Part shown: positions 23,121 to 25,586 of the stretch, piece after piece | How the letters are laid out: each line of letters begins with the position of its first letter | Numbering within the stretch: position 1 is the stretch's first letter | Source: Mycetocola sp. | GTDB taxonomy: Bacteria > Actinomycetota > Actinomycetes > Actinomycetales > Microbacteriaceae | Assembly: GCF_025464835.1 (NCBI RefSeq) | Contig: NZ_JAODMP010000062.1 | Coordinates: forward strand, 1-43,690 | DNA length: 43,690 bases | Reading direction: 5' to 3' | Translations under genes and position numbers: made by a program | Notes under the pieces: model-generated | What the model saw: only the letters and a program-made list of their open reading frames with translations | Told to the model about the DNA's origin: nothing | Database searches by the model: none

Positions 23121-24173
23121 ATGGCAAAAGACGCAGTGCTGCTCCCTGTTCCCGGGCCGAACGGAGCGCGGGAGGTGCGTATCTCCAGTCCGACACGGGT
23201 TCTGTGGTCCGAATCCGGCATCAGCAAACTCGACCTCGCCGGCTACCTCGTCGACGTCGGTGAAGCATTCATCCGGGCCAATGGGAACCGCCCCGTGTCA
23301 CTGCAGCGCTTCCCCGGTGGTATCGACGGTGAACAGTTCTTCTCGAAGAACCCACCGAAGGGTGCCCCCGACTACGTCCGGTCCGTGCCCGTGGTCTACC
23401 CGAGCGGTCGTTCACACCCGCAGCTGGTGCTCGACGAACCGGCGGCAGCGGTCTGGGCGGTCCAGATGAACACCGTCGTCTTCCACCCCTGGCCGTCCCG
23501 GGCCGACAACTCCGACAACCCGGACCAGCTACGCATCGACCTCGACCCGCAGCCGGGAACCGACTTCGGTGACGCCGTCCCAGCCGCGTTCGAACTCCGC
23601 TCCGTGCTCGAGGAAGCCGGCCTCACCGCCTTCGTCAAAACGAGCGGCAACCGCGGCATCCACGTGTTCGCCCCGATAGAGCCGACGCGTGAATTCCTCG
23701 ACGTCCGCCACGCGGTCATCGCCGCCGCGAGAGAACTCGAACGGCGGATGCCTGACAAGGTCACCACGAACTGGTGGAAGGAAGAACGCGGCGAGCGCAT
23801 TTTCATCGACTACAACCAGGCCAACCGGGACCGCACCATGGCCGGTGCGTACAGCCCGCGTGCCCTCGCACACGCGCCGGTGTCCTGCCCGCTCGAGTGG
23901 GACGAGCTCGAAGGTGCCGACCCTGCGGCGTTCACGATCCTGACCGTTCCTGAACGGTTACGCACCGTCGGGGACCCGTGGCAGAACCTGCACGCGAAGC
24001 CTGGCACGGTCGATGTGCTGCTCGGATGGTGGGAGCGTGACCTGTCGGATGGCCTTGGGGAGCTCCCGTTCCCGCCTGACTTCCCGAAGATGCCCGGCGA
24101 GCCCCCTCGCGTGCAGCCCAGCCGGAAGAACGCGGAAAACTGGGACGGCGACGACAACCCGAGAACTGACTGA
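23121..24173 (+). CDS. LigD-type NHEJ polymerase/primase domain protein
   Basis: 350 aa, a stand-alone archaeo-eukaryotic primase-like polymerase domain as in the LigD polymerase module. It adds nucleotides or ribonucleotides at DNA ends in non-homologous end joining. Catalytic acids in RIDLDP (D140, D142); other blocks are LQRFPGGIDGEQFFSKNPP, FVKTSGNRGIHVF, NWWKEERGERIFIDYNQ and AGAYSPRA. No ligase or nuclease domain is attached. The ligase is encoded separately on the opposite strand, 3' end to 3' end, across a structured repeat. No Ku gene is in the window. Confidence 0.93.
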   Translation: MAKDAVLLPVPGPNGAREVRISSPTRVLWSESGISKLDLAGYLVDVGEAFIRANGNRPVSLQRFPGGIDGEQFFSKNPPKGAPDYVRSVPVVYPSGRSHPQLVLDEPAAAVWAVQMNTVVFHPWPSRADNSDNPDQLRIDLDPQPGTDFGDAVPAAFELRSVLEEAGLTAFVKTSGNRGIHVFAPIEPTREFLDVRHAVIAAARELERRMPDKVTTNWWKEERGERIFIDYNQANRDRTMAGAYSPRALAHAPVSCPLEWDELEGADPAAFTILTVPERLRTVGDPWQNLHAKPGTVDVLLGWWERDLSDGLGELPFPPDFPKMPGEPPRVQPSRKNAENWDGDDNPRTD

Positions 24174-24212
24174 TCACATCCAGCAGCCCCCCTGAATTCA
24201 CCAGCCCCCCCC

Positions 24213-24262
24213 AAATTCAGCAGATCCCCAAATTCAGCAGATCCCCCCAAATTCAGCAGATC
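24213..24262. repeat. Direct repeats of a 14-base core with C-rich spacers
   Basis: AAATTCAGCAGATC occurs three times, at 24213-24226, 24230-24243 and 24249-24262, separated by runs of 3-6 C. A diverged related piece (CCTGAATTCACCAG) is at 24191-24204. The array starts about 40 bases after the polymerase stop. The AT-rich core and C-runs differ from flanking coding DNA. Confidence 0.85.
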
Positions 24263-24326
24263 CTGACGACACGCCGTACTGAGAGCGCTCCCGTACGGCG
24301 TGTCGGCACAGATCTCCTGAATTTGG
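24247..24326. repeat. Long imperfect inverted repeat / hairpin
   Basis: The outer arms are the third copy of the direct repeat, CCAAATTCAGCAGATC (24247-24262), and GATCTCCTGAATTTGG (24311-24326): 15 of 16 pairs. The inner arms GACACGCCGTAC (24268-24279) and GTACGGCGTGTC (24293-24304) pair perfectly over 12 bp. The loop (24280-24292) holds the palindrome GAGCGCTC. It could act as a two-way terminator for the convergent genes, but it is far longer than needed. Confidence 0.85.
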
Positions 24327-24420
24327 AGTCGGGGAGTCGGGGAGTCGGGGAGTTGGGAGTCGGGGAGTCGGGGAGTTGGGAGTCGGCGAGCCGGCAGTCG
24401 GGGAGATGGGAGTCGGGGAG
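24325..24420 (+). repeat. GAGTCGGG-type octamer array, G-quadruplex-prone
   Basis: About twelve 7-8-base units based on GAGTCGGG, with variants GAGTTGGG, GAGATGGG and one GAGCCGG. The plus strand has at least four runs of three or four G separated by AGTC or AGTT, which satisfies the usual G-quadruplex rule (four runs of 3 or more, loops up to 7). It ends about 20 bases before the 3' end of the ligase gene. Confidence 0.85.
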
Positions 24421-24440
24421 TGCTCTCGGACGAGCTCCGG

Positions 24441-25487
24441 TTAGTCGAGCACGTCGCTGAGGTCGTAGGCGATCGGCCGGTCGAGCTGGTCGAATCTGCA
24501 CGACGTCGCCTCGCGGTCCGGCCGCCAGCGGGAGAACTGAACGGTGTGCCGGAACCGCATGCCCTCCATCTGGTCGTACTGAACCTCGGCGACGAGCGTG
24601 GGCTCGAGCGGGACGAACGAGACGTCCTTGCTGCCGCTGAACCGGCTCCGATCCGTCTGCGCGCTCGTGACGGTCCCGTCCTCATCCCTCCGCACAAGCG
24701 GGGCGAGCTCGTCGACGAGTTCGAGTCGACGTGCGTTGCTGAACGCGGATGCCCCTCCCACGTTCCGCAGGACGCCGGCGTCGTCGTAGAGCCCCAGGAG
24801 GAGCGAACCGACCCCGTTGCCGCTCTTGTGGACGCGGTAGCCGACGATGACGACATCGGCAGTCCGGTGATGCTTGATCTTCAGCATCACCCGTTTACCC
24901 GGCGCGTACCCGGCGGCGAGCGGTTTCGCGACGACACCGTCGAGGCCAGCACCCTCGAACTCGACCAGCCAGGTCCGAGCGAGAGCCACGTCTGTCGTCG
25001 TCCTGGTGAGATGCAGCGGGTGCGCTGCCCTGCCGACAAGAGCCTCCAGCCGTTCCCGCCGTTCGGCGAACGGCACGTCGAGAAGGCTTTCGCCGCGCTG
25101 CTCGAGAAGGTCGAAAGCCACGAACATGGCCGGAGTCTCCGCCGCGAGCATCCGGACCCGGCTCTCCGCCGGGTGGATCCGAGCTGTCAGCGCCTCCCAG
25201 TCGAGGCGCTGGTTCCCCGCCTCACCCGTCGGCACGACGATCTCCCCGTCGAGGACGCAGGGTTCGGCGAGGAGCCGGCTGAGGGCATCCGTCAGCTCGG
25301 GAAAGTAGCGGGTGAGCATCTTTGCGCCGCGGCTGCCGATCTCCACGTTCTCGCCGTCGAAGGCGACAATCGCGCGGAAACCATCCCACTTGGGCTCGTA
25401 GCTCAGGCCGCCGTCGACACTGTCCGGTTCCGGGACGGCATCGACCGCTTTGGCGAGCATGGGGGAGGGGAGCGCCGAAATTTCCAT
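24441..25487 (-). CDS. ATP-dependent DNA ligase (LigC/LigD ligase type)
   Basis: 348 aa from ATG 25487. Catalytic lysine K33 in YEPKWDGFRA (motif I) attacks ATP; other blocks are LDGEIVVP (motif III), FVAFDLLE, EGAGLDGVVAKPL (motif IV) and KRVMLKIKHHRTADVVIVGY (motif V). The OB-fold ends in VQFSRWRPDR (motif VI). It seals nicks, most likely in NHEJ or base-excision repair, and would partner the LigD-type polymerase on the other strand. AGGA precedes the start; an in-frame upstream extension (MRQDRA) is less likely. Confidence 0.94.
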   Translation of the reverse strand: MEISALPSPMLAKAVDAVPEPDSVDGGLSYEPKWDGFRAIVAFDGENVEIGSRGAKMLTRYFPELTDALSRLLAEPCVLDGEIVVPTGEAGNQRLDWEALTARIHPAESRVRMLAAETPAMFVAFDLLEQRGESLLDVPFAERRERLEALVGRAAHPLHLTRTTTDVALARTWLVEFEGAGLDGVVAKPLAAGYAPGKRVMLKIKHHRTADVVIVGYRVHKSGNGVGSLLLGLYDDAGVLRNVGGASAFSNARRLELVDELAPLVRRDEDGTVTSAQTDRSRFSGSKDVSFVPLEPTLVAEVQYDQMEGMRFRHTVQFSRWRPDREATSCRFDQLDRPIAYDLSDVLD

Positions 25488-25586
25488 GGCTCGATCCTGC
25501 CGCACTCGGCGCCGCTGCGACAGCGGCGGACGGGCTCGTCAACCCATGTCGCCGCAGCAAACGCCGGTGTTAGCGTCAGAGCCACT

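Follow-up and report, generated by a model that had tools for sequence, protein, structure and literature searches.

REP sequences with their RAYT partners provide the standard example of short repeats that are linked to one domesticated enzyme; at species level the RAYT gene tree is described as largely congruent with the species (excerpts of PMC3116915). Proteins of other kinds also bear on the locus reported here. The EDxHD homing endonuclease I-Bth0305I forms dimers on a target site just under 60 bp long (excerpts of PMC3943268), AbiEi-family proteins bind inverted repeats, several at once (excerpts of PMC7319586), and in MTES_1575 a REase of the Vsr family is combined with HEPN, transglutaminase and wHTH domains (excerpts of PMC3710099). 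Nothing in the excerpted open-access publications links DUF559/AbiEi nucleases, MTES_1575 included, to dispersed palindromic repeats.

Here we analysed a window of 43,690 nucleotides from the 2.66 Mb genome of a Mycetocola sp. (Microbacteriaceae; G000, the host genome), in which a palindromic element occupies the gap between two convergent genes. We consider it likely that this element belongs, as a solo copy that is not autonomous, to a dispersed and mobile family of palindromic DNA elements, and that the partner of this family is a single-gene homing-type nuclease.

Results

Architecture of the window element

The element and its surroundings comprise the following features (window positions):

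23121 to 24173, + strand: neighbouring LigD-type primase-polymerase gene (PF21686, E 2.6e-91)
24176 to 24326: whole element, upstream boxes included
24176 to 24203, + strand: two degenerate outer boxes, the outermost of the array (ACATCCAGCA at 24176, GAATTCACCA at 24194; 2 mismatches each)
24213 to 24226, + strand: extra outer box AAATTCAGCAGATC, offset 36
24230 to 24243, + strand: extra outer box AAATTCAGCAGATC, offset 19
24249 to 24324: element proper, made of outer box AAATTCAGCAGATC, inner box CGACACGCCG, a 19-nt variable centre and the mirror image
24249 to 24262, + strand: left outer box O1 AAATTCAGCAGATC, left-right outer-box distance 62
24267 to 24276, + strand: left inner box CGACACGCCG, which recurs across Microbacteriaceae
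24277 to 24295, no strand: variable centre, 19 nt, with near-palindrome GAGAGCGCTCCC
24296 to 24305, - strand: right inner box, CGGCGTGTCG on the + strand
24311 to 24324, - strand: right outer box O1', GATCTCCTGAATTT on the + strand
24325 to 24421, no strand: tandem array of period 8, GGAGTCGG, outside the element
24441 to 25505, - strand: neighbouring convergent ATP-dependent DNA ligase gene (PF01068 and PF04679)

The general architecture consists of outer boxes AAATTCAGCA(GATC), with extras in steps of about 19 bp, followed by the inner box CGACACGCCG, the variable centre and the mirror image. Outer boxes stand at 0, 19, 36, 55 and 73 in the window, where the degenerate pair supplies the offsets 73 and 55 from the innermost box, and at 0, 19, 38 and 57 at another locus (L014).

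The initial annotation, made from the letters alone, had described three direct repeats and a long inverted repeat, and this description held. The copies of AAATTCAGCAGATC begin at 24213, 24230 and 24249, and the third lies, as proposed, within the left arm of the inverted repeat. The outer inverted repeat measures 16 nt at 94% complementarity, with its partner arm at 24311 to 24326, and the inner arms, given as 12 pairs, form 13 consecutive ones (24267 to 24279 with 24293 to 24305). Folding of the 84 nt from 24245 to 24328 gave z = -9.66 on the + strand and -10.67 on the - strand, with 0 of 200 shuffles as good on each. The octamer array noted next to the hairpin is real; it is not part of the element family, because the other 24 distinct copies, examined out to 300 bp, have between them a single lone GGGGAGTC (L013). 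As for the placement between two NHEJ-type genes, the convergent polymerase/ligase pair is genuine but incidental, other copies adjoining other genes.

Copies in the host genome

A search for AAATTCAGNAGATC with at most 1 mismatch, of the kind that the annotation had recommended, returned 41 matches in the host genome and 0 for the backwards control. The whole element was found at 26 places, the window included. Two copies, one at the end of contig C87 and the other at the end of C88, share an overlap of 98-99% identity and, judged from this, are probably one locus, leaving 25 distinct copies. Beside the element these two ends (L017, L020), otherwise near-identical, are separated by a gap of more than 100 bp, a strain mixture or an assembly effect.

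The distance between outer boxes is 62 bp in 25 of the 26 places and 61 bp in the remaining one. An extra outer box with at most 2 mismatches accompanies 16 arms of the 25 distinct copies, the nearest always at offset 19, and the reversed-box control yielded two scattered matches. According to a simple ORF caller, the gene context is convergent at 12 places, tandem at 8, divergent at 4 and undetermined at 2; by a simple GC3 rule, 4 of the 26 overlap a called ORF and 22 do not. These comparisons show the element as a mirror-symmetric set of putative half-sites with about 25 copies in the host. The annotation had reserved the verdict of a chance or local expansion for a sequence unique in the genome and absent from relatives; the element is repeated in this genome and present in relatives, although plain DNA similarity matches only 3 of 40 genomes, host included.

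Locus L271, on host contig C37, carries two further repeats of other kinds. At L271 4733-4803 about 71 bp are self-complementary, and the five congeners have matches at the equivalent position. At L271 3741-3780 lies a dispersed repeat of 40 bp, which is also present on C13, C17, C26 and C47 and in the congener G005.

A nuclease gene bracketed by elements

In an all-against-all ORF comparison of 140 loci, the largest cluster (19 loci) had no fixed place relative to the element, and the second largest (8 loci) corresponded to the gene directly beside the element each time. This partner gene encodes a protein of about 270-300 residues that combines an AbiEi-like N-terminal part with a DUF559 nuclease part. 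At L097, L107, L119, L123, L158, L197 and L066, two elements with a spacing of about 1.0-1.3 kb enclose the gene, which at L153 (partial gene) and at the host locus L010 has the element on one side. The host gene is C37:31-909; its element is at 962, 50 bp downstream, and on the upstream side the contig ends. Among 33 loci fetched with a profile, elements were present on both sides in 7 (one being L066 again), on one side in 1 (the host gene at the contig end) and on neither side in 25, and the reversed-pattern control on the same loci found none.

Comparing the left with the right 410 bp of flank (E<=1e-4) gave a match for 38 of 76 nuclease genes and no bracket for 38, these genes being profile hits in genomes largely picked for carrying the element; three further nuclease genes were too near contig ends for the test. 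Subtracting the seven named loci that were found via the element leaves 35 of 69. Matches were seen in 2 of 224 swapped flank pairs and for 5 of 289 other genes, one of them the antisense shadow of a nuclease gene. A second gene set gave 15 brackets among 29 genes, or 15 of 26 after removal of three repeats of earlier loci (two genomes). Clear palindromes on both sides (at least 28 of 45 self-complementary positions, where random windows have mean 22.3, sd 2.5 and maximum 37) characterise 12 of the 35 brackets not scored as core; in the rest the palindrome is not clear, and by eye a handful of the 35 look core-like. In the brackets of L224, L225, L226 and L234 a repeated box again recurs 19 bp apart. 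In many Microbacteriaceae, two copies are thus shown to bracket a gene predicted to encode an AbiEi-like winged-helix plus EDxHD/Vsr-type nuclease.

Pfam detected DUF559 above cut-off together with MTES_1575 below cut-off in 5 of 5 partner proteins, and AbiEi_4 above cut-off in 1 of the 5 and below it in 4. The AlphaFold model of the host nuclease (pLDDT 95.9, pTM 0.91) was matched by Foldseek to AbiEi (6y8q, E 1.3e-5), Rv2827c (1zel, 3.2e-4), 3hrl (1.4e-3) and the catalytic domain of I-Bth0305I (3r3p, E 2.8e-3, TM-score by target 0.74), and the sequence profile found 3hrl at 4e-11 and 3r3p at 6.1e-5. Residues E195, D222 and D247 are conserved in 56 of 56 cases and H239 in 54 of 56, in the order E-D-H-D; position 234 is N in the host nuclease and D in 53 of 56. 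The protein contains the Vsr-like catalytic domain with E, D, H and D that marks EDxHD homing endonucleases, and its model carries a predicted AbiEi-like two-domain DNA-binding fold, as in AbiE type IV systems. For nine pairs of nuclease genes dN/dS was 0.08-0.34, with dS near saturation in several. A search for Y1_Tnp (PF01797, RAYT) found none in the host genome and one genome with it among 20 searched; RAYT was rejected as the partner on its absence from the host genome.

Distribution in the family and beyond

The inner-box pair with an 18-bp gap and at most 1 mismatch occurs in 53 of 299 family genomes (host included), at 0 to 21 matches per genome, and the backwards pattern in 2 of 299. 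An exact scan of GTDB gave at least 119 stretches; among the matches listed, most are Microbacteriaceae or other Micrococcales by title, and those in Streptomyces, Pantoea, Undibacterium and Stenotrophomonas may be due to chance. Among 80 of the loci compared, the centres differ and the outer inverted arms differ by lineage, and the outer box likewise differs between lineages.

The inner-box pattern had no match in viral contigs, and the window element none in phages and plasmids at E 1e-3, on which grounds a phage or plasmid origin was rejected. For the nuclease, matches among plasmids reach only 30-32% identity and are on three from Tsukamurella. Outside the family, 9 of 296 phylum genomes have a nuclease match at E<=1e-30 (8 candidates scored per genome); the bracket test was applied to 16 of 27 matches, of which 4 pass E<=1e-4, including 1 of 9 outside the family.

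Four of 20 core-bearing genomes (two Isoptericola, two Micrococcus) contain no nuclease relative at E<=1e-20. G006 likewise has none, though it has four inner-box pattern matches, and in G204 the one nuclease was found without a core bracket. The core elements in Isoptericola (L116, L139, L149, L161, L144), which share the outer arm GTGGGTGCA, and in Micrococcus (L157, L205), all without a nuclease relative at E 1e-20 in the four genomes searched, may have another partner. Haematomicrobium sanguinis has core elements (L113, L129, L132, L134, L151, L168) with near-identical long arms around CTATGTAGCG.

History of individual sites

At the window site the element is absent from all five congeners. 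The two genes abut in G001, G002 and G004, G003 carries 622 bp of inserted DNA that includes a 192-codon ORF, and G005 has a 619-bp insert with a different repeat. The boundary of the window insertion is not readable because the last codons of the neighbouring genes have diverged. The repeat in the polymerase/ligase gap of G005 (G005:C8:134189-134807, L243) is about 100 bp long, with three copies by eye; the gap seems to collect repeats.

Two copies on host contig C5 were also compared. The first is absent from G005 and G001. The second is absent from G001, and at its place G005 has an inner-box pair with 3 mismatches and an 18-bp gap, without an outer box, which from its sequence may be a relic. 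No target-site duplication was readable at these two sites. Since 3 of the 4 G005 elements compared occupy positions common with G000, and given the possible C5 relic, element turnover is slow.

A second nuclease gene on host contig C41, with a different palindrome, has the same flanking DNA in G001, G002, G003 and G005, the four congeners compared, and its counterpart in G002 has no detected bracket. Solo copies of the C41-type palindrome numbered none in 275 kb of host DNA scanned (overlaps included), with one candidate each in G005 and G002. With the first profile the best score in G005 was 236 bits against 372 for the host C37 gene, a difference that is suggestive only, because this profile contains the C37 protein. 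Next to the matching gene of the C37 region in the five congeners, 5.5-6.2 kb contained no core element, the upstream side being missing in the host. By analogy, a history in which elements persist slowly and mostly by vertical descent, with some gains confined to single lineages, resembles reports on REPINs and RAYTs (excerpts of PMC3116915).

It is unlikely, in our judgement, that nothing here is mobile and that the elements are operators or decoys of a resident regulator or toxin-antitoxin-like nuclease, the gene being controlled by AbiEi-type autoregulation and the solo copies titrating its product or forming a regulon. AbiEi-family proteins do autoregulate via inverted repeats (excerpts of PMC7319586), the nuclease genes are under purifying selection, and units and some solos are inherited in place, all as such a scheme would have it. 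It sits poorly, however, with elements that flank the gene on both sides, downstream included; with 12 convergent and 4 divergent places among 26, a poor layout for a regulon; and with a number of matches that ranges from 0 to 21 per genome and a window site that is lineage-specific.

DNA half-sites rather than an RNA stem

Across the 25 distinct copies, variation in the left outer arm is independent of that in the right one (lowest Fisher p 0.06 among 14 positions, in the sense opposite to covariation). In three host copies (L030, L032, L033) the inner boxes are in direct orientation, 21 bp apart, and both elements of the unit in G152 also have direct inner boxes, with one mismatch per element (by eye). 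Because the arms vary independently and the inner boxes are sometimes direct, the element is, at the level of sequence, a set of putative DNA half-sites rather than an RNA stem. An Rfam scan of the window gave no match at gathering score, and a terminator search returned no terminator-like match. An RNA element was rejected on the missing Rfam match and the arms without covariation; neither the T-tract stem of an intrinsic terminator nor the covarying stem of a structured RNA was found.

Very improbable, then, is a bidirectional transcription terminator or RNA hairpin, multiplied as a dispersed terminator repeat. The strong folding and the 12 of 26 places between convergent genes are what such a repeat would show, but it leaves unexplained the lack of terminator-like and Rfam matches, the absence of arm covariation across 25 copies, the direct inner boxes 21 bp apart in three host copies and the G152 unit, and the extra outer boxes, which contribute nothing to a stem. 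Of the three suggestions in the initial annotation, those of a mobile repeat and of a protein-binding site gain joint support from the dispersed family, its presence or absence by lineage, the half-sites and the link to a nuclease gene; that of a small structured RNA is not supported, for want of an Rfam match, arm covariation or a terminator-like match and in view of the direct inner boxes.

Pairing of elements with nucleases

We compared the outer arms of solo copies with brackets in the 24 genomes that have both solo copies and a core-bracketed gene. On average, solos agreed with the bracket of their own genome at 15.4 of 18 positions and with those of other genomes at 9.2. The own bracket ranked first or tied first in 19 of the 24 (two ties), and 0 of 10,000 label permutations reached the mean; the five misses are G059 (rank 6), M. 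kyungheense (3) and G020, G131 and G295 (2 each). From the host, 17 of 24 distinct solos were used; those left out were the window copy and six in which the inner boxes are altered. The last six genomes to be included, all of which rank first, were chosen by a single rule, a core on each side of the gene, after their arms had already been seen. Solo copies are thus shown mostly to share their outer box with the gene-bracketing copies of their own genome.

Once nuclease identity exceeds about 45%, element similarity climbs with it (mean scores of 21, 30 and 50 in the higher bins, against 12-14 at lower identity), with a Mantel r of 0.50 (0 of 2000) and a weak Spearman coefficient of 0.08 over all 1326 pairs. 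The host nuclease is sister to that of G152, from another genus (support 100/97); the brackets of both have TTCAGCA in the outer box, and their outer boxes are nearly the same. Core-type nucleases cluster on the tree, with 8 changes against a shuffled mean of 19.4 (0 of 500), some labels having been set by eye. It is barely credible that the elements are ordinary MITEs, belonging to a DDE transposase or an insertion sequence and carrying the nuclease gene as a passenger: they are dispersed and non-coding and have short inverted repeats, as MITEs do, but the gene cluster directly beside them is that of the AbiEi-DUF559 gene (8 of 140 loci), and the outer box tracks the nuclease of the same genome.

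Discussion

Our preferred reading, in which the window element is a solo copy mobilised by a homing-type nuclease, implies the following mechanism, with binding, cutting and movement by the nuclease as inferred steps. The AbiEi-like part would read the half-sites, that is, the stepped outer boxes and the inner boxes, and two or more molecules would meet across the 62-bp palindrome. The nuclease domain would then cut DNA, and copies would spread by a cut-and-repair or homing-like route, in which repair copies or moves the element, in trans for solo copies. After loss of the gene, solos would decay in place. In the host, the partner nuclease would be the product of the C37 gene (31-909).

On a broader proposal our judgement is evenly balanced: that homing-type EDxHD nucleases with an AbiEi-like reader have become trans-acting mobilisers of 19-bp-stepped palindromes, with an outer-box code for each lineage and an Actinobacterial origin independent of REPIN/RAYT, and so form a separate class. 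That the system described here deserves a class of its own has a fair chance. An unrelated class of enzyme that does the same job as RAYT in another phylum would open the principle to comparative tests. A role would also be suggested for a protein group, AbiEi/DUF559, that is common in Microbacteriaceae, and the pairs of outer box and nuclease would constitute a natural table of DNA-recognition codes.

Each half of the partner protein has described relatives. Like the AbiEi antitoxins (S. agalactiae AbiEi, Rv2827c), whose structures 6y8q and 1zel its model matches, it has an AbiEi-like fold, which here, unlike in those antitoxins, is joined to a nuclease domain. With DUF559/MTES_1575-type nucleases it shares the Pfam matches in all five proteins (DUF559 above and MTES_1575 below cut-off). 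The catalytic domain is related in sequence and fold to that of I-Bth0305I (3r3p), the target of which, just under 60 bp, is comparable with the 62-bp arm distance here (excerpts of PMC3943268); in contrast to I-Bth0305I, the gene is bracketed by palindromes and includes an AbiEi-like DNA-binding part.

The comparison with REP/REPIN sequences and RAYT (TnpA-REP) shows both likeness and difference. As in that system, there are dispersed, mostly extragenic short palindromes in several versions and a cognate gene with adjoining palindrome copies, though here not in every genome (excerpts of PMC3116915). The enzyme, however, is an AbiEi-like wHTH joined to an EDxHD/Vsr nuclease, whereas RAYT is a Y1 tyrosine transposase; the elements are stepped half-sites with an inner box; and they number about 25 copies, against usually more than 100 for REPs (excerpts of PMC2817692). 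Because the defining Y1 transposase is absent from the host genome, the system is not a member of REPIN/RAYT, and the best reading is that it functions like REPIN/RAYT with an unrelated enzyme.
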